DNA of 64,000 bases. It comes from Acidobacteriota bacterium (GTDB lineage Bacteria > Acidobacteriota > Thermoanaerobaculia > Gp7-AA8). How positions within the stretch are numbered: the first letter of the stretch is position 1; each line of letters opens with the position of its first letter. The notes under the pieces were generated by a model. That model did no database searches. It had not been told where the DNA came from and saw nothing but the letters and a program-made list of their open reading frames with translations. The DNA is taken from assembly GCA_003223645.1 (NCBI GenBank), contig QHVT01000020.1:1-64000 (forward strand). Reading direction: 5' to 3'. Both the position numbers and the translations under genes were made by a program. Positions 4,767 through 52,541 of the stretch are shown here, piece after piece.

Positions 4767-6620
4767 TCACAACGCCCCCGCCCCGCCGCGCGAGACCGGC
4801 ACTTTCACCGCCTCCGGCACGGGCAGAAAATCCTCCCCCGGATTGATGAACCGGTCCGTCTCGAAGTTGTACTGCCGGTCGTACAGCTGTCGATAGCGTC
4901 CGTTCGCCGCGAGGAGCTCGCTGTGGGTTCCACGCTCGACGATCTCGCCTCCTTCCAGGACGAGGATCTGATCGGCGCCGCGGATGGTGGAGAGGCGGTG
5001 GGCGATGACGAAAGTCGTTCGGCCGCGGCGTAACGCGCGCAATCCGTCCTGGATTTTTGCTTCGCTTTCGCTGTCGAGGCTGGACGTGGCTTCGTCGAGG
5101 ATGAGGATTTGCGGGTTGGCGAGGATGGCTCGCGCGATGGCGATGCGTTGGCGCTGGCCGCCGCTCAACTTGATTCCGCGCTCGCCGATGATGGTGTCGT
5201 ATTTTTTCTCGAGGGGGTCGACGAATTCGTCGACGTGGGCGATGTGGGCGACTTCGAGGACTTCGTCCATCGTGGCGTCGGGGCGGCCGTAGCGGATGTT
5301 CTCGGCAACCGTTCCGTCGAAGAGGAAGTTGTCCTGGAGGACGATGCCGAGGTGGGAGCGGTAGTCGTGGAGGCGCAGGCTCTCGAGGTCGCGGCTGTCG
5401 ACGAGGACGCGGCCGCTCTTGGGGTGGTTGAATGTCATGACGAGGCTGATCAGGGTGCTCTTGCCGGAGCCGCTCGATCCAACGAGGGCGGTCGTGGTGC
5501 GCGCCGGTGCGTTGAAGGAGATGTGTTTGAGCACTTCCACGCCGGGGTCGTATTCGAACGTGACGTCTTCGAATGCGATATCGCCGCGGATGTCGCCCAC
5601 CGGTTCGCGCGCCGCGTCCTCATCGAGCTCCGTGTGCATCTTCATGATCTCGCGGATTCGATCCAGACCCGCGAACGCCTCGGTGATCTGGGTTCCGATC
5701 GACGCGATGCTCATGATCGGCGCGGCGAGGAGGCCGGTGAAGAAGACGTACATGACGAAGTCGCCGAGGGTCATCGCGTGGGCGAGGATCGCGCGTCCGC
5801 CGACGAGCATCATGATCACGCCGACGACGCCGAGGATGATGGTGGCGAACGCGCTGACGGCGGAGACGGAGGTGATCGTCTTGGCGACGTTGCGGAAGAG
5901 GTTGTGCACGCCTTTCGCGAAGACGATATCTTCGCGCTTCTCGGTCGTGTAGGCCTTGACGACGCGGATGCCGCCGAGGCTCTCGCCGAGGCGGCCGGTG
6001 ACCTGCGCGTTGATCTCGCCGCGCTTGCGGAAGAGCGGACGCACACGCTTGAACGTGAACGCCATCCCAGCGCCGAACAGCGCCAGCGTGACGATCGTGA
6101 TGAGGGTCAGCTTCCAGTTCAGATAGAAGAGGACGAACAGCGCGAGGAAGGCGGTGACGATGCCGCCGATCAGCTGTACGAGCCCCGTGCCGACGATGTT
6201 TCGGATGCCTTCCGCGTCGCTCATGATGCGCGAGATCAGGATGCCGGACTTCGTCGAATCAAAGTACGCGACGGGGAGCCGCAGCACGTGTTCTTCGACG
6301 CGCTTGCGCATCTCGGTGATGGCGCGCTGCGCGGCGACGCCGAGGATTTGCGAGAGCGCGAACGACGTCGCGGCCTGCACCAGCGTTGCGATGATCGCCG
6401 CGAGCGCGAGCAGCGGCAGCAGCTCGCGGCGCCCCTTGCCGATCACTTCGTCGATCAGATACTTCGACGTCGCGGGAAGCACGAGGCCGGAGATGCGGCT
6501 CACCAGCATCAGCGCGAGTCCGATCCCGAGCCGTCCGCGCCGCTCCCAGACGAGATCGCGCGCTTCGCGCCACACTTCATCGAGCTTGAGCTTCTTCTTT
6601 TTCGCCTTTTCGTCGGGCAT
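4767..6620 (-). CDS. ABC exporter, fused permease and ATPase (MsbA/MDR type)
   Basis: A 617-residue half-transporter starting at MPDEKAKKKKLKLDEV. Residues 1-330 carry six membrane helices (for example LGIGLALMLVSRISGLVL and LIGGIVTAFLALFVLFYLNW). The ATPase domain has Walker A GSSGSGKS, a Q-loop in VLQDNFLF, signature LSGGQRQR, Walker B ILILDEATSSLD and the H-loop in VIAHRLST. It should act as a homodimer exporting a lipid or hydrophobic compound across the inner membrane. An ORF extending to 6854 exists, but the extra N-terminus covers a family D repeat and is unlikely to be translated. It is divergent from the racemase-like gene. Confidence 0.93.
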   Translation of the reverse strand: MPDEKAKKKKLKLDEVWREARDLVWERRGRLGIGLALMLVSRISGLVLPATSKYLIDEVIGKGRRELLPLLALAAIIATLVQAATSFALSQILGVAAQRAITEMRKRVEEHVLRLPVAYFDSTKSGILISRIMSDAEGIRNIVGTGLVQLIGGIVTAFLALFVLFYLNWKLTLITIVTLALFGAGMAFTFKRVRPLFRKRGEINAQVTGRLGESLGGIRVVKAYTTEKREDIVFAKGVHNLFRNVAKTITSVSAVSAFATIILGVVGVIMMLVGGRAILAHAMTLGDFVMYVFFTGLLAAPIMSIASIGTQITEAFAGLDRIREIMKMHTELDEDAAREPVGDIRGDIAFEDVTFEYDPGVEVLKHISFNAPARTTTALVGSSGSGKSTLISLVMTFNHPKSGRVLVDSRDLESLRLHDYRSHLGIVLQDNFLFDGTVAENIRYGRPDATMDEVLEVAHIAHVDEFVDPLEKKYDTIIGERGIKLSGGQRQRIAIARAILANPQILILDEATSSLDSESEAKIQDGLRALRRGRTTFVIAHRLSTIRGADQILVLEGGEIVERGTHSELLAANGRYRQLYDRQYNFETDRFINPGEDFLPVPEAVKVPVSRGGAGAL

Positions 6621-6653
6621 CAGGCGGCGATGATACGTCGAGCGTGAGGGGCG

Positions 6654-6746
6654 TGCGGTGGAGCGGCGGCCGGCTTGAACGCCGGTGAAACAGTTTTGCC
6701 ACGAGCGTGAGGCGTTCGGCGGCCGAGGGCGGCCGCCGCTCCACAG
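6654..6746. repeat. Family D palindromic element D1
   Basis: Outer arms GTGGAGCGGCGGCCG and CGGCCGCCGCTCCAC enclose a divergent centre. Matching copies are at 21609-21713 and, inside a gene, at 30598-30662. Confidence 0.8.
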
Positions 6747-6829
6747 GTTTCGCGAGCGTGAGCGCGGCGCATGAATGCCATGAATGAATTCACATTGATT
6801 GTGCGCATGGTGACCCATAGTCTGAGAAC

Positions 6830-7516
6830 GTGAAGACGATCGGCTCAGGCACAATTGGATTAATCGGCGGCATCGGTCCGGAATCGACGGTCGATTACTA
6901 CCGCCTCATCGTCGCCGCGCGTCCCGGCGCGTCGGTCGTGATCAACAGCGTCGACATGAAGCGCGTCCTCGGCCCGATCGCCTCCGGCGATCTCGACTCG
7001 GTCGCGCAATATCTCGCCGACGAAGTGCAGCGGCTCGCGCGTGCGGGTGCGGACTTCGCGGCGATCACGGCAATCACCGCGCACATCGTCTTCGATCGCG
7101 TTCGCGACGCGTCGCCGATTCCGGTCGTCAGTCTGCTCGACGCCGTGCGCGATCGCGTGCAGGCGTCGGGCTGGACTAAAGTCGGGTTGATCGGAACGCG
7201 CTACACGATGAGCGGCACGTTCGTTTCGGATGTGTTCTCGCAAGCCGGCATCGCGATCGTCACGCCGGATACAGACGAGCAGACGTACATTCACGACAAG
7301 TATTTCAACGAGCTGGTGCGCGGCATCATCGATCCGCAGACGCGCGACGGAATCGTACGCGTCATCGATCGCATGGCGGCGCGCGACGCGATCGAGGCGC
7401 TGATCATCGGCGGCACGGATTTCTCGCCGATGCTGCGCGCCGTCGCGAATCCGCCGGTGCCGTTTCTCGACGTGACGAAGATCCACGTCGATCGACTGAT
7501 GGAGCTTTCGCAATGA
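6830..7516 (+). CDS. Asp/Glu racemase-superfamily protein lacking both catalytic cysteines
   Basis: A 228-residue protein with a GTG start. It opens with IGLIGGIGPESTVDYY, the hallmark of aspartate/glutamate racemases (YgeA/RacX type). Family members use two cysteines, in an x-C-N-T-x-H block and a G-C-T-E block. Here these read TAITAH and IGGTDF, so Cys becomes Ala and Cys becomes Gly, while neighbouring Thr and His residues are kept. A racemase by the two-thiol mechanism is therefore unlikely; a binding role or a related lyase/isomerase activity is possible. Its stop codon overlaps the RraA-like gene by four bases (ATGA), so the two are translationally coupled. Confidence 0.82.
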   Translation: MKTIGSGTIGLIGGIGPESTVDYYRLIVAARPGASVVINSVDMKRVLGPIASGDLDSVAQYLADEVQRLARAGADFAAITAITAHIVFDRVRDASPIPVVSLLDAVRDRVQASGWTKVGLIGTRYTMSGTFVSDVFSQAGIAIVTPDTDEQTYIHDKYFNELVRGIIDPQTRDGIVRVIDRMAARDAIEALIIGGTDFSPMLRAVANPPVPFLDVTKIHVDRLMELSQ

Positions 7517-45754: not shown

Positions 45755-45829
45755 GGGCCCGTAGCTCAGTGGTAGAGCAGCTGGCTTTTAACCAGTTGGT
45801 CGTAGGTTCGATCCCTACCGGGCTCACCA
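45755..45829 (+). tRNA. tRNA-Lys (anticodon TTT)
   Basis: Acceptor GGGCCCG pairs with CGGGCTC (one G-U), the T arm is GTAGG-TTCGATC-CCTAC, and the anticodon arm GCTGG-CTTTTAA-CCAGT gives anticodon TTT. CCA is encoded. Confidence 0.97.
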
Positions 45830-45865: not shown

Positions 45866-45941
45866 GTCCCCATCGTCTAGAGGCCTAGGACATCGCCCTT
45901 TCACGGCGACAACACGGGTTCGAATCCCGTTGGGGACGCCA
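45866..45941 (+). tRNA. tRNA-Glu (anticodon TTC)
   Basis: Acceptor GTCCCCA pairs with TGGGGAC, the anticodon loop CTTTCAC gives TTC, and CCA is encoded. The genomic island begins directly after its 3' end, the classic integration site for tyrosine-recombinase elements. Confidence 0.97.
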
Positions 45942-46479
45942 CTTTAAATGCCGCAGATTCAATTGCTTAGAATGTCGTGAATCTGGCGCGTGTGCATTAC
46001 GTGTGATTCGACCTCAACTTGGAGGTTGAATGCTCACGTTGTTCCGCCGCCACGTTTCGAACTGCCGGCATCCTTCCCGCCGGTATCGCCGCTGCTCCTG
46101 CCCGATCCACGTCGAAGAAGTCTCGGCGGCGAGACGATCCGCCTCTCGCTCGACCTCACGCCATCGGAAGCCGCGACGATCAAGATTCGCGGGTGGAAGC
46201 GGTTGGGAGGATTGGCCGCGATGAACCGAAGCTCGTCACGCTCGCCGCCGTCGATCTCTACGTGAAGGACGCCACCACCCGCGGCGTGCGTGCGAGCAGG
46301 GTGCCTTTCCCCGGACGACTCCTCGAAGGCGATCACGTTTCGTGGCGCGAACGGGAAGGACTCCGCCTGCTCCACCAAATCACGCTCAAGCACATCATCG
46401 CATACCGAGCGTCGTGGAACCGGCTGCCGCGATGAGCCACCGAAGGCATCTTGGTCTTATACTGCTCATAGAGAAGGAG

Positions 46480-46862
46480 CTTCCCATGTAACCGCCGTCG
46501 TCTCCGTTCTTCGCTACGGAGGCTTGCGGATCCGCGACGCTGCAGGTCTGGAGAGGGGCCCGGCTCACAAGCGCGAGCCGCGATGAGCCCTGATTCGCGC
46601 TATTTCTTCCCGAACGCATCGGCTCGCTCGAAAGTGCCGTCTCAAGCTGGAAAACGAACGCTCTACCGGATTTTGAGCTGGCGCAGGTTGAGGGGCCAAC
46701 GCATATCGATTTCGCGACATGTTCGCCGTCGATCTCTTGCTTTATGATGTGCCGCTCGAAAGTATTTCGCAGCTACTCGGACATCGATCAAGAGGACGGA
46801 GATAATTACGCCCCCAGAATGAAAGCCGGCAAGATCGATTACAGCAGATAGTTCGAGGTACA
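46480..46862 (+). pseudogene. Degenerate tyrosine recombinase (integrase)
   Basis: Pieces of a phage-type integrase appear in different frames: VLRYGGLRIRDAAGLE at about 46500-46560 (first catalytic Arg box), AYRFRDMFAVDLLLYDVPLE and SISQLLGHRS at 46701-46790 (the H-x-x-R and G-H boxes, with the first His now Tyr), DNYAPRMKAGK (region after the catalytic Tyr position) in another frame, and VRGTWDYRG further on. Stops and frameshifts separate them, so it is inactive. It explains how the island could have entered at tRNA-Glu. Confidence 0.7.
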
Positions 46863-47361
46863 TGGGACTACCGCGGACAGCTCCAGCCCGATCTGAAAAC
46901 GCCTAATCTCTCAAATGAGGATGCCAGTTCCAACAGCAGCTATCAAGACGTGAGCAATAGCTAAACGCGCTACGCTTGCCGTATTTGACGCGTAAATCGA
47001 TCAGCGCTATCTTTAAACGAGCGGCGGCTTCGTCGATAGATGGAGTTTCATACGCGAAATTCCTGACCGCTGAAAGGGATATTGTGAAAACGATTTTCGT
47101 CAAGTTTATCTTGGGCGAGAGCGCCTTCTGGTTTACGTTCGGGGAAACGTTCGTGAGGCTCATACTCGTTACAATCACGAATCTTTTGCTGATAACTTCG
47201 CACGCTCCATATCGGACGCCATCCTTCAACATTGTCGGTTGGATTCTTCCACGGTGTGGTAGCCGGACTCAATCAGTCACAGCAAGCGGTGGCCTTGAAG
47301 GCCGCCGTTACTTACTTTTTGCGGCTTTCTAACGATTCCGCACGCCGAACGCGAATTGCAG
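46863..47361. other. AT-richer stretch without recognised gene
   Basis: Overlapping frames of about 75-118 codons exist on both strands, but none shows a family, signal peptide or ribosome-binding site that I can support. A hairpin GGTGGCCTTGAAGGCCGCC lies at about 47287, close to the start of the next gene. Confidence 0.5.
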
Positions 47362-48453
47362 ATGGCACAACCTCGACTTCTATATAGCGTCGTATGGGAA
47401 GACGCGTTCGTTGCCTGTGAAGCTCTTCGATCCACGGCGCTGCAGGGAAAGTTACTTTGCATAGCTTCGGCCGGTGACATCGCGCTGTCACTACTAACCT
47501 TAGATACGGATCAAGTTCTCGCCGTCGATTGTAATGCTGCACAGATCGCCGCTACAGAACTTCGCGCATGCGCGATCGCCCACTTGTCGAATATCGATGT
47601 CCGTGAATTCTTGGGAGCCTCGGGGGGCAATGAATCTTCCAGGCTGGATACATATGCCACTCTCCGCTCATCCTTATCTCCATTTTCGCGCAGCTTCTGG
47701 GATTACAGGCGACACGCGGTTAAAAAGGGTATTATTCATGGAGGCCGGTTCGAAAGGTATCTACGACGCTTTCGACGCTGGCTCTTGCCTTTACTAACTC
47801 GGCCGACGGCGATTTCTTCCCTCATCGCAGCGCCGTCACAATCTGCACGAGAAGCCGTGTTTGCTAGTCTATGGAACACTACCCGTTGGCGCGTTGCCTG
47901 CCGGCTATTTTTTGGCGCGATCGCCCAGAATCGGTTCCGCTTTCCGAACGCTCTCCGAGCCGCTGCTGTGGATATTGACTCCGAAGTTGAACGCCGCACT
48001 CGTCATGTTCTTACAACTCGTACTATTGCTAACAACCCTTATCTAAGTTATCTCCTTTTAGGATATTACCCTGCGGATGCGCTCCCGCTCTATCTACGGG
48101 ATCATACGCTCCACATCATTCGCGCTCGGCTAAGCCGTCTTCATCTCCATCATTGTACGATCGCTGACATTAGCGATGCCGGAATCAGCGGTATGTATTT
48201 GTCCGACATCTTTGAGCCGCTGACACAGGTGGAGTTTGAGCGCGACTATGCGATTTTGTTAGATCGTCTTCGACCCGGCGGCCGCCTCGTTTATTGGTGC
48301 AATTATGCGATCAGGCAGCCCCCGCCTCTGGGAATCGTAGTCGAAAGTTCCGAGGTCGCGCGATTAATGGTTGCTGATCAGATCGGGTCGTATCCAGAGC
48401 TTCACATCGAATCGAAGGCTATTCCGAGAGCGATGCCCCTTCGCCTGCGATGA
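47362..48453 (+). CDS. DUF3419 / BtaA-like aminocarboxypropyl transferase
   Basis: A 363-residue protein (ATG at 47362; a TTG two codons earlier is possible). LLYSVVWEDAFVACEAL, LLCIASAGDIALSLLTL and VLAVDCNAAQIAATELR form the SAM-binding Rossmann part as in BtaA, and RSFWDYRRHAVKKGIIHGGR, NNPYLSYLLLGYYPADALP and DRLRPGGRLVYWCNYA complete the DUF3419 pattern. BtaA transfers the 3-amino-3-carboxypropyl group of SAM to diacylglycerol, the first step of betaine-lipid synthesis. It faces, and overlaps by 35 bases at the 3' end, the MFS carrier gene. Acting on an isoprenoid glycerol lipid is my inference from the neighbours. Confidence 0.78.
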   Translation: MAQPRLLYSVVWEDAFVACEALRSTALQGKLLCIASAGDIALSLLTLDTDQVLAVDCNAAQIAATELRACAIAHLSNIDVREFLGASGGNESSRLDTYATLRSSLSPFSRSFWDYRRHAVKKGIIHGGRFERYLRRFRRWLLPLLTRPTAISSLIAAPSQSAREAVFASLWNTTRWRVACRLFFGAIAQNRFRFPNALRAAAVDIDSEVERRTRHVLTTRTIANNPYLSYLLLGYYPADALPLYLRDHTLHIIRARLSRLHLHHCTIADISDAGISGMYLSDIFEPLTQVEFERDYAILLDRLRPGGRLVYWCNYAIRQPPPLGIVVESSEVARLMVADQIGSYPELHIESKAIPRAMPLRLR

Positions 48454-49723
48454 GCCTATCGATGCGGCCTTGCCGCCCGTCCAGCAGCAGCATAAGGCCA
48501 ATCACTATCATTGTCCCCATTACCGCGTACGCGAGAGCATAACGTAAGCCCATATTGAAAGGAAGGAGCATCACGCCGCTCCAGCAAAGGGGACCAATAA
48601 TTGACGCGCAGCGTTCAAAAACAGAATAAAGACCGTAGCCCTTGCCAAGCGTAGTTCTCTCCGCCAAGTCAAACAAGTATGCGCGTGATGTGCTCCAAAG
48701 AACACCAAAAAGAATGCCGCAGCACACGATGGTGCTCCAAATTAATAGACCAATCTGCGTCGCTACTGCCAGTGCAGCGAATGCGCCAAGCCACAATATA
48801 AGCGTCACCACAATAATCTTGCGGAGCGGCTGCGGACGTAGCCAGCCGACTGCGGCGCTCGAGAGCGAACCGCAGGTTAGTGCGATCGCAAATGCGACGG
48901 CAGTCTGGCTGTCGGAAAAGCCGATGCGTTCCCTGAGATATATCGGAAGGAACAATTGCACTGTTAATAGCGCGTCCGAGTACAACATAAACGCCAGAAG
49001 GTAGCGTGTTAAGCGCGGGGCTTTCCTGGCGAAGAGCCAATTCTCATGGAAATACCTCTTGATCGACCATTTGCTTTCATCGTCATGAGTTATGGCAACG
49101 GCATCCGTTCCCCTCCCAAGAGTGATGAACACAACTACGAAGAGCACAAGAAACACCACACCCATCACGGCCAATAAATTTAGCCGTCCGTCGGCGCTCT
49201 CCCCCAGCCAGTGGCGCAATAAATAAGCGCCGAGCAGCGCGCCAATTACGGAACCGAAGCTACCTGCGGCCTCTCCAAAACCCGTGTATTTCGTGACGTC
49301 CTTAAGGTCATGCACGCCGCGAATGTGCGGCAGGAGCCAATTGTACGGAACGAGACTCAACTGATACACAAAGTTGATCAGGCCAAAGACCATCAACGTT
49401 CCGCCGATGCGAAGCCATTGTGCTTCACGGTGGCCTAGGCCGGTAATCGCTAATGCGAGCATCCCGAGTGCGAACGAGCCATACACGAGGAAAGAAAAGC
49501 CATTTCGCTTTCGATCAATCGCGGCACCAATCAGCGGCGCGATCACCAGTAGCGCGAAAGCCGATAGAGAATAGGTCAACCCATACCAGAACGAACCCTG
49601 CCCTTGGTCAATACTGATCCATTTGGAAAAATACAAACTACCATTTATGATAAGCAGCGAATTAATGAAGTCATAGGCTATCCATGCGCGAATAGCTCCG
49701 CGTGCTGGGTCGCTCGTATTCAT
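48419..49723 (-). CDS. MFS carrier, UMF1/Atg22-like
   Basis: A 434-residue membrane protein with about twelve helices. The start at MNTSDPARG is chosen because it overlaps the GGGP-synthase stop as ATGA. The opening AIRAWIAYDFINSLLIINGSLYF resembles the A-W-x-x-Y-D-x-A-N-S signature of UMF1/Atg22 transporters, followed by IAPLIGAAIDRKR (MFS loop motif) and KDVTKYTGFGEAAG. It may export or flip a product of the island enzymes. It is the last gene of the four-gene minus-strand operon. Confidence 0.8.
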   Translation of the reverse strand: MNTSDPARGAIRAWIAYDFINSLLIINGSLYFSKWISIDQGQGSFWYGLTYSLSAFALLVIAPLIGAAIDRKRNGFSFLVYGSFALGMLALAITGLGHREAQWLRIGGTLMVFGLINFVYQLSLVPYNWLLPHIRGVHDLKDVTKYTGFGEAAGSFGSVIGALLGAYLLRHWLGESADGRLNLLAVMGVVFLVLFVVVFITLGRGTDAVAITHDDESKWSIKRYFHENWLFARKAPRLTRYLLAFMLYSDALLTVQLFLPIYLRERIGFSDSQTAVAFAIALTCGSLSSAAVGWLRPQPLRKIIVVTLILWLGAFAALAVATQIGLLIWSTIVCCGILFGVLWSTSRAYLFDLAERTTLGKGYGLYSVFERCASIIGPLCWSGVMLLPFNMGLRYALAYAVMGTMIVIGLMLLLDGRQGRIDRLIAGEGASLSE

Positions 49724-50448
49724 GGTGTCGCTAACCATGCTGTGCCACCTCGTTGTTCAAACGCTGATCCAATGACAATTCCTCTTGCTCCGGCGGCAAA
49801 CGCCGAAGCACATTGTTGCTGCGTCTTGATTCCGCCGCCAACGAGGACTGGCAATCCGTCTCCACCTTCGACCGCGGCCCGGATTTCCTCCACGCTGGCG
49901 CTTACAATAGCGTCGCTGCCAGCCTCTAGGTAAATGGCGTCTACGCCCAAAAGACGTCCGACAAGAGACATCGTACGAACGATCTCGGGTTTACCGCGCG
50001 GAATGGGAAGCACCTGCGTGAAGAAAGCCGCTGACGTTGATCGACCGCCATCAAGTTGCAAATACGCGACTCTTACGCACGGCATGCCATATCGCTCAAT
50101 CGTTGCAGCGGCCGCGATAACATGGTCAGTAATAAACCGTGTGTTGCCGCTTCCGATCGCCAACGGCACGACAAGAAAGTCGGCAAGGGGCGACAGTACG
50201 GTATCGACAGGGCCAGCAGTTAGAAAAGTGCCGACGCATTTAAGCGTTCTCTTGCAAGTTTTCATCACCTCGTCGAAATTGGTGCCGTGAATGTAAGTGC
50301 CGCCTACGATCAGGGTATTGACAGGAGTCGTCGCATTTGCGGCTAGGGCGTGTTCCAAGATGAGTGGATCCCAATGATCGGGATCGACCAAAAAATGAAT
50401 GCCGTTCGGTGCCAATAAGGCGAGTCTCCCACACGCTGTATTCACCAT
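49720..50448 (-). CDS. Geranylgeranylglyceryl phosphate synthase family (GGGPS/PcrB-like)
   Basis: A 242-residue TIM-barrel protein. It shows HFLVDPDHWDP at the start, NTLIVGGTYIHG, VGTFLTAGPVDTVLSPLADF, the substrate-binding VDAIYLEAGSD, and the phosphate site LPVLVGGGIKTQQQC with GIVIGSAFEQ. These are the landmarks of GGGP synthases, which attach a polyprenyl chain to glycerol-1-phosphate by an ether bond, the first committed step of archaeal-type lipids. Bacterial relatives include PcrB (heptaprenyl). Its start is two bases after the UbiA stop. Its own glycerol-1-phosphate dehydrogenase is not in the window. Confidence 0.82.
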   Translation of the reverse strand: MVNTACGRLALLAPNGIHFLVDPDHWDPLILEHALAANATTPVNTLIVGGTYIHGTNFDEVMKTCKRTLKCVGTFLTAGPVDTVLSPLADFLVVPLAIGSGNTRFITDHVIAAAATIERYGMPCVRVAYLQLDGGRSTSAAFFTQVLPIPRGKPEIVRTMSLVGRLLGVDAIYLEAGSDAIVSASVEEIRAAVEGGDGLPVLVGGGIKTQQQCASAFAAGARGIVIGSAFEQRGGTAWLATP

Positions 50449-50450
50449 GG

Positions 50451-51263
50451 CTACATCGCCAGAAAGAGCGCCGGCACGCTGGAATAGGCGGCTAGCTTCA
50501 GCAGTCGCGAATCCAGGCTCGCATTGTTTCTGCCGGCGGAGTTAAAAATGATTAGCAGGAGTGGCATTCCGCTCACGCAAAAGCTGAACGAGCGGCTAAG
50601 GCCGCACTCCATAACAGTTGCCGACAATCCGGCGACGATAAGAAAAGCGAAGAGCAATTTCCCAAATCGAGGGTAGCGACGGAGAACGGGTTCTGGACGG
50701 AATTGCTTATCACCCTCATAGTCCAGAATATCCTTCTTGAGTTCACGGGCGAGTGTGACGGCAAAAAGAAAAACGGCGATGAACACAAGTGGCCAGCGTC
50801 GCTCAGGTGAGGCAGACAACGGAACTACCGCGATGAGGGTTGCCGTCAGGATGTTCGCTGCGGCGGCACTCCGATAGCGGACGAACGAGGAATAGAACAA
50901 TCCGCCGCTAAGGCCCAAAAGCGGCCACAACGACACGTCCGGCCGCAAAGCGAGGCAGAGCAGCAAGTCTGTCATTATTATTACCAGTCCTGCGCAGATC
51001 GCCGCTCGCCGGCTGATATCGCCATGCAAGAGAGGTCGACTCGGGCAGTTTATAGCGTCGACATGAACATCGACAAGGTCATTAAATAGGTAGGAAGCGC
51101 TCGCGGCCAGGAACCAGGCGCTCGCCGAAATTATTATGAATTGCAGTGAGCCCGTAGCGGCATAGCGTGATGCCGCGAGATACAATAAGGCTATAGCGAG
51201 CGCATTCGGGAGTCTAATCAAGCGCGCGAGAGCCAGTACGAAGTCATACGTGGTACGCCACAT
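50451..51263 (-). CDS. UbiA-superfamily prenyltransferase, DGGGP synthase-like
   Basis: A 270-residue protein with seven to nine helices. The first Asp-rich motif is FNDLVDVHVDAINCPSRPL (N-D-x-x-D-x-x-x-D-x-x-N-x-P-x-R-P) and the second is ARELKKDILDYEGD. The pairing R-P-L/x-G with K-D-I-x-D-x-E-G-D is characteristic of digeranylgeranylglyceryl phosphate synthases within UbiA, which add the second prenyl chain to GGGP at the membrane. Quinone- or chlorophyll-type UbiA enzymes are the alternative, but the adjacent GGGPS gene (two bases away) favours lipid synthesis. Confidence 0.83.
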   Translation of the reverse strand: MWRTTYDFVLALARLIRLPNALAIALLYLAASRYAATGSLQFIIISASAWFLAASASYLFNDLVDVHVDAINCPSRPLLHGDISRRAAICAGLVIIMTDLLLCLALRPDVSLWPLLGLSGGLFYSSFVRYRSAAAANILTATLIAVVPLSASPERRWPLVFIAVFLFAVTLARELKKDILDYEGDKQFRPEPVLRRYPRFGKLLFAFLIVAGLSATVMECGLSRSFSFCVSGMPLLLIIFNSAGRNNASLDSRLLKLAAYSSVPALFLAM

Positions 51264-51272
51264 AAATGATAA

Positions 51273-51980
51273 CTATACGTCGTCCGACCATGCTGTTTCA
51301 ATAGTTTTCGTGTAGTCGTCCGGGCTGGAAGTCTGTCCAAATAGACGTCGATGCACGACGGGCGTGAGAACAGTTGTGACTATAGCGGATGTTGCGACGA
51401 CAATCGCATATGTCGAGCTGCTCCATTTTTCACCATATGTCCATGCAACGAAAGTCAGCCCGATTAAAATGCCAAGGTAAATCAATAATCGCTTCGCGAA
51501 ATGAGTTAAGTGATTGATGGCTTGTACAGTCGCGTTGCCTTTGTGGCGAAGTGTCGAGCGCATCTGTTTCAGTTTTGCGACGTTAAGCAGTATGAGTAGA
51601 ATCAGAAAGACAGGAGTAACTGCGGGCTCCTTTGCCGCGCAGACAGCTACCAGAGCGAGGGTCACTGTTATCAGCAAAGTGGTCATCTCTTGCCAAGACG
51701 TCTCGGCTTTTTGACTGTGGAACTGAAGCGGAATGTAATATGTGCTGTATTGCCTCCAAACGGTGAATACGAGATAACCGGCGAGGATTGACCAAGTTAC
51801 GTCGGCCAAGCGGTCGCTGTTACTTGCAGTAACACTGAATGCCTCCAGAATTAAGGTGTAGATGCTTCCAAAAGCGATGGCGAAACACGTGTTGATGAAG
51901 ACAAGCGAACTTTGCGTAAGATCGAATCGACGAACCGAGGCACGATAGCGGCATTCTGCCGCGGAGTCCATCTCGCCCAT
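51273..51980 (-). CDS. Polytopic membrane protein, unrecognised
   Basis: A 235-residue protein from MGEMDSAAECR. About six hydrophobic segments are visible: SLVFINTCFAIAFGSIYTLI, WSILAGYLVFTVW, MTTLLITVTLALVAVCAA, VFLILLILLNVA, LLIYLGILIGLTFVAWTY and YAIVVATSAIVTTVL. A frame extending to 52502 exists only because it is antisense to another gene. It is the first gene of the operon with UbiA, GGGPS and MFS genes (nine bases to UbiA), so it probably serves the same pathway; function unknown. Confidence 0.6.
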   Translation of the reverse strand: MGEMDSAAECRYRASVRRFDLTQSSLVFINTCFAIAFGSIYTLILEAFSVTASNSDRLADVTWSILAGYLVFTVWRQYSTYYIPLQFHSQKAETSWQEMTTLLITVTLALVAVCAAKEPAVTPVFLILLILLNVAKLKQMRSTLRHKGNATVQAINHLTHFAKRLLIYLGILIGLTFVAWTYGEKWSSSTYAIVVATSAIVTTVLTPVVHRRLFGQTSSPDDYTKTIETAWSDDV

Positions 51981-52100
51981 TTCGTGAGTCTTTACCGTCC
52001 CTTCTTGTTCTAGGAGTGATGCTGACGAGAAATTCCCTACCCCGGCGTAGCCGGAACCAAGAAGAAAGCGTGAAGGCGCGAGTGGCGATATCGTCGCCAG

Positions 52101-52541
52101 ATGGCGAAGCTGATCGAACGTCACCGTGACCGGTTCGAGGGAGTGTTGTCGTGCTTCGATCGGGTGTTGATTCAGGGAATGTTGCCGAGCGTGGGTTACG
52201 CCAAAGTCATGTCGATCACGCTCGACAGCCGGGGCATCAAGCTGTTCGACTACGTGACCGAGTTTGCTCAGCCGTTCCGAGAGTCGATTCGCGCCCAAGC
52301 CGAATGTGTGTCGGCAGATGCTGGGATCGAGGTCGAGTACATCAAGAAGCCGAAGGGCCTTCGGAAGGAAGATCGCAGCCGAGAGATCGTCGTCAGGCGA
52401 GGCGACTATCCGGGACTGGCGCATCTGTTTTCGGTCATGGAGTTCTGCTTGTCGTATCGGCCATGGCACAACAAGCAGACCGGGTCCCCGCGCCCTCCGC
52501 ATATAATTTCCTTCGTATGCCGAAACATTCGGCGGACGTAG
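52101..52541 (+). pseudogene. Truncated 5' fragment of a conserved unrecognised gene
   Basis: The frame MAKLIERHRDRFEGVLSCFD, RVLIQGMLPSVGYA, then VRRGDYPGLAHLFSVMEFCL and SYRPWHNKQTGS looks like the first part of a longer protein that occurs in many copies in soil bacteria (from memory; no name). It stops resembling that protein after KQTGS at about 52485 and runs into the MarR promoter. It is therefore a fragment left at the right edge of the island and may mark the recombination point. Confidence 0.5.
52502..52507 (+). promoter_or_regulatory. -10 box of the MarR gene
   Basis: A perfect TATAAT ten bases ahead of the MarR ATG. No good -35 is seen at 17 bases upstream, where the island fragment ends, so the -35 may have been replaced or lost at the junction. 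The transcript would be nearly leaderless. Confidence 0.5.

Follow-up and report, generated by a model that had tools for sequence, protein, structure and literature searches.

A horizontally acquired island with an ether-lipid-like gene set behind a tRNA-Glu gene in an Acidobacteriota bacterium

What could a member of the Acidobacteriota make with a compact set of genes that resembles an archaeal ether-lipid pathway and faces a relative of a betaine-lipid enzyme? The question is raised by contig QHVT01000020.1 of assembly GCA_003223645.1, of which positions 1 to 64,000 were analyzed (this whole stretch is referred to as the window). An island that extends from position 45942 to approximately 52.5 kb, directly behind a tRNA-Glu gene, carries a gene related to geranylgeranylglyceryl phosphate synthase (GGGPS), a UbiA-family gene related to digeranylgeranylglyceryl phosphate synthase (DGGGPS), and genes for a membrane protein, a major facilitator superfamily (MFS) carrier and a DUF3419 protein. 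In a preliminary description, made from the sequence alone, these genes had been taken for a putative archaeal-type ether-lipid pathway, acquired horizontally and coupled to an enzyme for a betaine-lipid head group. We read them as an acquired, neofunctionalised island whose product would be an isoprenoid ether, most probably a lipid, and we assign this reading a probability of roughly 0.4. The earlier proposal is partly supported: the gene set is ether-lipid-like, and neither an archaeal lipid pathway nor a betaine-lipid enzyme is demonstrated.

Four of the five genes form an operon on the minus strand. From upstream to downstream, they encode a membrane protein of 235 amino acids (51273..51980), the UbiA-family membrane prenyltransferase (50451..51263), the highly diverged GGGPS/PcrB-superfamily prenyltransferase (49720..50448) and an ATG22/UMF1-type major facilitator (48419..49738). 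The membrane protein gene and the UbiA gene are separated by 9 bases, the UbiA and GGGPS-family genes by 2 bases, and the GGGPS-family and MFS genes overlap by 19 bases, a spacing that fits translationally coupled genes on a single transcript. The DUF3419 gene (47362..48453, with an alternative TTG start at 47356) lies on the plus strand and converges on the MFS gene with an overlap of 35 bases. All five reading frames are open and intact, and four of the five have a Pfam family above cut-off. The five genes, their positions, the operon, the two-base gap and the facing DUF3419 gene were thus all as first described, as judged by Pfam and the coordinates. The MFS gene product, a candidate exporter of a lipid or other product, scores over cut-off with both MFS_1 (PF07690, 89 bits) and ATG22 (PF11700, 46 bits versus a cut-off of 24.1). 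The membrane protein encoded by the first gene of the operon has about five hydrophobic segments and no match in Pfam (best E-value 0.13) or NCBIfam.

A link to ether lipids is provided by the barrel protein encoded by the GGGPS-family gene. It matches the PcrB family (PF01884) with 66.6 bits versus a cut-off of 23.9, and its best match in the PDB, far above chance, is the group II GGGPS of Flavobacterium johnsoniae (4jej, E-value 3.7e-21); no PcrB or Archaeoglobus chain was found at an E-value below 1 in this sequence search. We compared an AlphaFold2 (AF2) model of the protein (pLDDT 87, built from 34 sequences) to known structures. The Z-scores were 28-31 for all listed group II GGGPS, with the maximum of 30.9 for 4jej (rmsd 2.1), and 24-25 for PcrB, MoeO5 (24.1) and AfGGGPS; other barrels did not exceed 14.6. 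The likeness to 4jej and the PRK04169 subfamily (NF003198) extends over the whole length of the barrel and includes the DPD and GGG motifs, although the identity to 4jej in the structural alignment is 26%. Membership in the GGGPS/PcrB/MoeO5 superfamily, with a group II-like barrel, is confirmed. It should be noted that a Tyr/Tyr/Glu triad (Y124, Y165 and E167 in AfGGGPS) is credited with catalysis and stereospecificity (PMC9385802), and the alignment shows that this triad is kept in the island protein as Y129, Y173 and E175.

The UbiA protein appears to be a distant relative of DGGGPS. It matches PF01040 with 68 bits (cut-off 34.2) and contains both Asp-rich motifs, NDLVDVHVD and KDILDYEGD, whose patterns ND..D...D and KD..D..GD align with those of two orthodox bacterial DGGGPS that are approximately 27-30% identical to it. 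The best PDB match is DGGGPS 6m31 (E-value 1.1e-8), followed by 4tq3 (E-value 0.11). Among NCBIfam models, the DGGGPS-like PRK12884 (78 bits) and PRK12882 (53 bits) score above the chlorophyll, ubiquinone and heme models ChlG (38 bits), UbiA (21 bits) and CyoE (20 bits). With the model that carries a curated DGGGPS cut-off, the protein reaches 53 of 296 bits; the two orthodox proteins used for comparison do not attain this cut-off either, with 211 and 244 bits. The sequence comparisons place the protein closer to DGGGPS than to the quinone enzymes, as the preliminary description had suggested. The AF2 model of this protein was too poor for use (pLDDT 47, three sequences). The ebo cluster, which also combines a UbiA protein with a TIM barrel (PMC9235831), was considered and rejected because EboC scored 35.6 bits, below the DGGGPS-type models, and the other ebo genes are absent.

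The DUF3419 protein belongs to the same Pfam family as BtaA of the BtaA/BtaB betaine-lipid system (PF11899, 145 bits versus a cut-off of 28.2) and has a similar N-terminal motif of the S-adenosylmethionine (SAM) type, SAGD...VDCNAAQ; however, the match covers positions 9-331 of 385 of the profile only. The 16 orthodox BtaA-type proteins of the phylum score about 314-344 bits, and the island protein is 18-23% identical to them. A methyltransferase gene (BtaB) follows BtaA in both of the orthodox neighborhoods that were read out (L148 and L151). No BtaB lies beside the DUF3419 gene in the island; the rest of the genome was not searched for it. By these comparisons the island protein is of a subfamily different from that of the orthodox BtaA group, which travels with BtaB.

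The nearest relative found is the second DUF3419 copy of the same genome, which is 36% identical and is encoded on another contig (C29; L116 7305-14241) between genes for HMG-CoA reductase and a membrane protein resembling dolichol/phytol kinases, with a phosphoenolpyruvate (PEP)/pyruvate-binding protein and a UbiA protein encoded on the other strand. Four genes of this cluster have homologs in a six-gene operon on a plasmid of Roseinatronobacter, a member of another phylum (NZ_CP121116.1; L177 523-8507), with the order UbiA, PEP/pyruvate-binding, DUF3419, dolichol-kinase-like, GNAT-like and AMP-binding; we found no description of this operon. DUF3419 proteins of the island subfamily (32-36% identity) therefore stand beside a prenyltransferase in three loci, and this raises the likelihood that the two are functionally linked in the island as well. 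The UbiA proteins of the other two loci are PRK13592/PRK05951-like, i.e., of another subfamily, and GGGPS is absent from both. A literature search returned no paper that names UbiA and DUF3419 together. A separate feature of the C29 locus is a repeated, minisatellite-like LFACETG / LACLHVKL peptide pattern (L116, approximately 6491-7390) between the acyl-CoA dehydrogenase and HMG-CoA reductase genes.

What the analysis establishes is the arrangement of the genes, the fold and family of the parts, the kept catalytic residues, the foreign composition and the restriction to one genome of the class. Taken as one pathway, the parts suggest the following scheme, in which the order of the steps, the substrates, the product and the participation of the DUF3419 protein are what we infer. 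The soluble GGGPS-like enzyme would use a prenyl diphosphate to prenylate an acceptor of the glycerol type that is probably phosphorylated, and the membrane-bound UbiA enzyme, encoded immediately upstream, would attach a second chain; the MFS carrier would move the product across the membrane. These two successive prenyl transfers with MFS export are the most probable part of the scheme. Less surely, and by analogy with BtaA, the DUF3419 enzyme may transfer a 3-amino-3-carboxypropyl group from SAM to this product or a lipid related to it. The more specific outcome, a new lipid class in which an isoprenoid glycerol (di)ether with an aminocarboxypropyl (homoserine-type) head group is made by a re-purposed GGGPS-like enzyme, UbiA and DUF3419, and flipped by the UMF1-type carrier, is unlikely.

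Several observations weigh against an ether-lipid island of this kind, and the first of them concern the barrel protein itself. It stays below all curated GGGPS cut-offs (NF003198, 121.7 of 247 bits; TIGR01768, 75.5 of 113.25; TIGR01769, 81.4 of 161.55), whereas three bacterial comparison proteins (L034, L004 and L005) pass all three. It also carries Asp179 in a phosphate loop, where 84 of 84 relatives have Gly; this is the last Gly of the sequence YLEAGSGA in the relatives, and its counterpart contacts the phosphate of glycerol-1-phosphate (G1P). The motif by which these relatives were selected required YLEAGS but accepted Asp as well as Gly at the position in question, so the invariance of the Gly was not built in. 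The three G1P phosphate loops (Ser-Gly, Gly-Gly and Gly-Thr/Asn) are thus kept unevenly: Ser178 is retained before Asp179, the GGG of the second loop is intact, and the third reads Gly-Ser. Further changes at positions that are invariant or almost invariant in the 84 relatives include the replacement of Ser51 by Thr and the loss of the FPG motif; the SGRN stretch is replaced as well. In the tree, the protein falls inside the bacterial group II set, with an unsure placement, on a terminal branch of 4.65 changes per site compared to the median of 0.33. A profile scan found at least 585 GGGPS relatives, and the best among the matches listed is 37% identical, although relatives at 40-60% identity may have escaped this listing; no close relative was found by six exact 8-residue patterns in genome and viral contigs or by tblastn in plasmids.

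The remaining counterpoints concern the island as a unit. The same five-gene neighborhood, the search for which the preliminary description had suggested, was found in no second genome, and no recognisable copies of the island UbiA, MFS, membrane protein or DUF3419 genes were found in the locus DNA around 80 GGGPS relatives; the five-gene unit is therefore without conserved-synteny support. The DUF3419 gene lies on the strand opposite to the operon, and its product keeps 25 of the 61 positions that are invariant in the 16 BtaA-type proteins. It is a member of the family, as first stated, but not a canonical BtaA. A gene resembling CarS or a reductase gene is absent from the island. Finally, G1P dehydrogenase, also named earlier as something to look for, was not found in the genome (96.67% complete), in which the Fe-ADH_2 model (PF13685) matches only a protein that we assigned by eye to AroB. 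The latter result is not a refutation, since G1P dehydrogenase is likewise missing from Cloacimonetes whose GGGPS/DGGGPS pair works, and Escherichia coli with archaeal genes forms G1P lipids without it (PMC7852524).

How should the divergence of the barrel protein be interpreted? One explanation would be the archaeal pathway in the literal sense, i.e., an ordinary GGGPS and DGGGPS that produce digeranylgeranylglyceryl phosphate on G1P, with BtaA adding a homoserine (betaine-type) head group. The families and the adjacency of the genes fit such a pathway, the triad is kept, and Cloacimonetes set a precedent for working enzymes in a host that has no G1P dehydrogenase (PMC7852524). Against it stand the failed cut-offs, which the comparison proteins pass, the long branch, the Asp in the phosphate loop, and a DUF3419 protein far from canonical BtaA with no BtaB next to it; we regard the literal pathway as distinctly unlikely. 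The failed cut-offs and the altered loop mean that a reaction of G1P with geranylgeranyl diphosphate (GGPP) cannot be assumed; the strong divergence, including Asp179, argues that the acceptor or the donor differs from the archaeal pair. We read it as neofunctionalisation with a probable change of substrate, with relaxed constraint as the rival interpretation. The structural and active-site comparisons called for earlier thus gave a mixed answer: the superfamily fold, the catalytic triad and the DGGGPS-like UbiA protein speak for an isoprenoid ether product, but the identification of the barrel as a standard GGGPS, and with it the archaeal reaction, is not supported by them.

A diverged acceptor loop is also compatible with a product that is not a membrane lipid but a prenylated secondary metabolite. 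The acceptor of MoeO5, the moenomycin prenyltransferase, is other than G1P. In this explanation, a MoeO5-like barrel would transfer a chain (as MoeO5 transfers farnesyl to 3-phosphoglycerate), UbiA would prenylate another part of the molecule, DUF3419 would add the aminocarboxypropyl group, and the MFS protein would export the product. MoeO5 shares the superfamily and the fold, an MFS exporter is present in the operon, and related DUF3419 genes occur in metabolite-like clusters, either with a CoF synthetase and a ketoacyl synthase or with a giant AMP-binding-like gene, which indicates that the family is broader than betaine lipids. Conversely, the barrel is nearer to group II GGGPS than to MoeO5 in both fold and sequence, UbiA resembles DGGGPS more than it does the aromatic prenyltransferases, and the island contains no core scaffold or glycosyltransferase genes, with no moenomycin-type genes near it. 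A secondary metabolite seems rather unlikely. In two other loci, the DUF3419 domain is found inside proteins of about 612-627 amino acids (L149 7030-8868 and L137 721-2604); the former has an N-terminal membrane region resembling an isoprenylcysteine-methyltransferase-type domain, suggesting a fused transferase-methyltransferase.

That the island was acquired horizontally is well supported. DNA synteny with a genome of the same genus (G001, the single one compared) runs through tRNA-Lys (45755-45829) and stops exactly after the last base of tRNA-Glu (anticodon ttc; 45866..45941, plus strand, predicted by ARAGORN), which marks the left border. The GC content is 50-54% over 47-52 kb versus 59-68% on both flanks (host approximately 64%), so the AT-richer island behind tRNA-Glu that was noted at first is indeed there; the fall behind tRNA-Glu starts from a level of approximately 62-66%. 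Third-position GC (GC3) is 0.50-0.62 in the island genes and 0.74-0.90 in flanking genes. GGGPS is present in one of 149 genomes of the class and DUF3419 in one of 18 genomes of the family, and in both cases the carrier is the host genome. The assembly of this genome contains no 16S gene. Probable debris is found at both borders. A putative broken tyrosine recombinase (integrase) remnant lies at 46480..46802 on the plus strand, in a frame that reads AVVSVLRYGGLRIRDAAGLERG ... AYRFRDMFAVDLLLYDVPLESISQLLGHRS with stops between; the matches are weak (PF00589, E-value 0.053, below cut-off; PHROG integrases, E-values 0.14-0.21). At the right border, a 146-amino-acid protein fragment (52101..52541, plus strand), probably derived from a mobile element, has a stretch 50% identical to a sequence on a Paraburkholderia plasmid and no Pfam match. 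The end of tRNA-Glu is not repeated in direct orientation anywhere in the window or in the 38 kb that follow it, so the right border is unmarked by an att site. Other family members have different insertions between tRNA-Lys and tRNA-Glu. The distance between the two genes, 36 bases in the window, is 5.1 kb (L169 8375-13651) and 2.0 kb (L171 13088-15258) in two family members, which makes this tRNA pair look like a hot spot for insertions.

The same border debris, together with the single carrier genome and the long GGGPS branch, might point to a decaying or mixed island, in which fragments of different sources accumulated behind the tRNA gene as passengers that share no pathway, and the long branch reflects relaxed constraint. 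We consider this very doubtful, given that the five frames are open, the genes of the operon are separated by 2-9 bases or overlap, the catalytic residues have been retained and the confidence of the GGGPS model is high. The preferred reading, an acquired and neofunctionalised island for an isoprenoid ether compound, would be of general interest with respect to the lipid divide between Bacteria and Archaea, for which bacterial carriers of archaeal-type ether-lipid enzymes are relevant. In this island, the key enzyme pair occurs in a strongly diverged form that is compact and transferable, and it is tied to a head-group enzyme of another kind. If a lipid is made, it would show that one horizontal transfer can suffice to obtain isoprenoid ether lipids and that such lipids can receive a head group free of phosphorus. 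With five genes, the island is small enough for expression in a laboratory strain.

With regard to precursors, the host genome encodes HMG-CoA reductase and is the only one within its family to do so. This finding prompted us to consider a complete mevalonate pathway, which we rejected because the four GHMP kinases encoded in the genome were assigned by eye to IspE, homoserine kinase and two types of sugar kinase. As none of them was read as mevalonate kinase, the host appears to use the methylerythritol phosphate (MEP) route; MEP-type hosts with no recognised G1P dehydrogenase, and a GGGPS paired with a UbiA protein that has both Asp-rich motifs, are features shared with Cloacimonetes (PMC7852524). 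Orthodox pairs, in which GGGPS is directly followed by DGGGPS, were also found in two genomes of the same phylum, G297 (L029 7839-11154) and G326 (L030 7487-13375), which shows that the two genes can form a unit in bacteria of the host's phylum. These genes are not close to those of the island (27-30% identity), and the island has the MFS and DUF3419 genes instead of a geranylgeranyl reductase or radical SAM gene. Both orthodox pairs adjoin a gene for a radical SAM protein with an HMPTM zinc ribbon, which we take to be Tes-like; in G326, a polyprenyl synthase gene and a geranylgeranyl-reductase-like gene flank the radical SAM/GGGPS/DGGGPS set. Judged from their gene content, the two loci look like full archaeal lipid clusters in bacteria, possibly for tetraethers.

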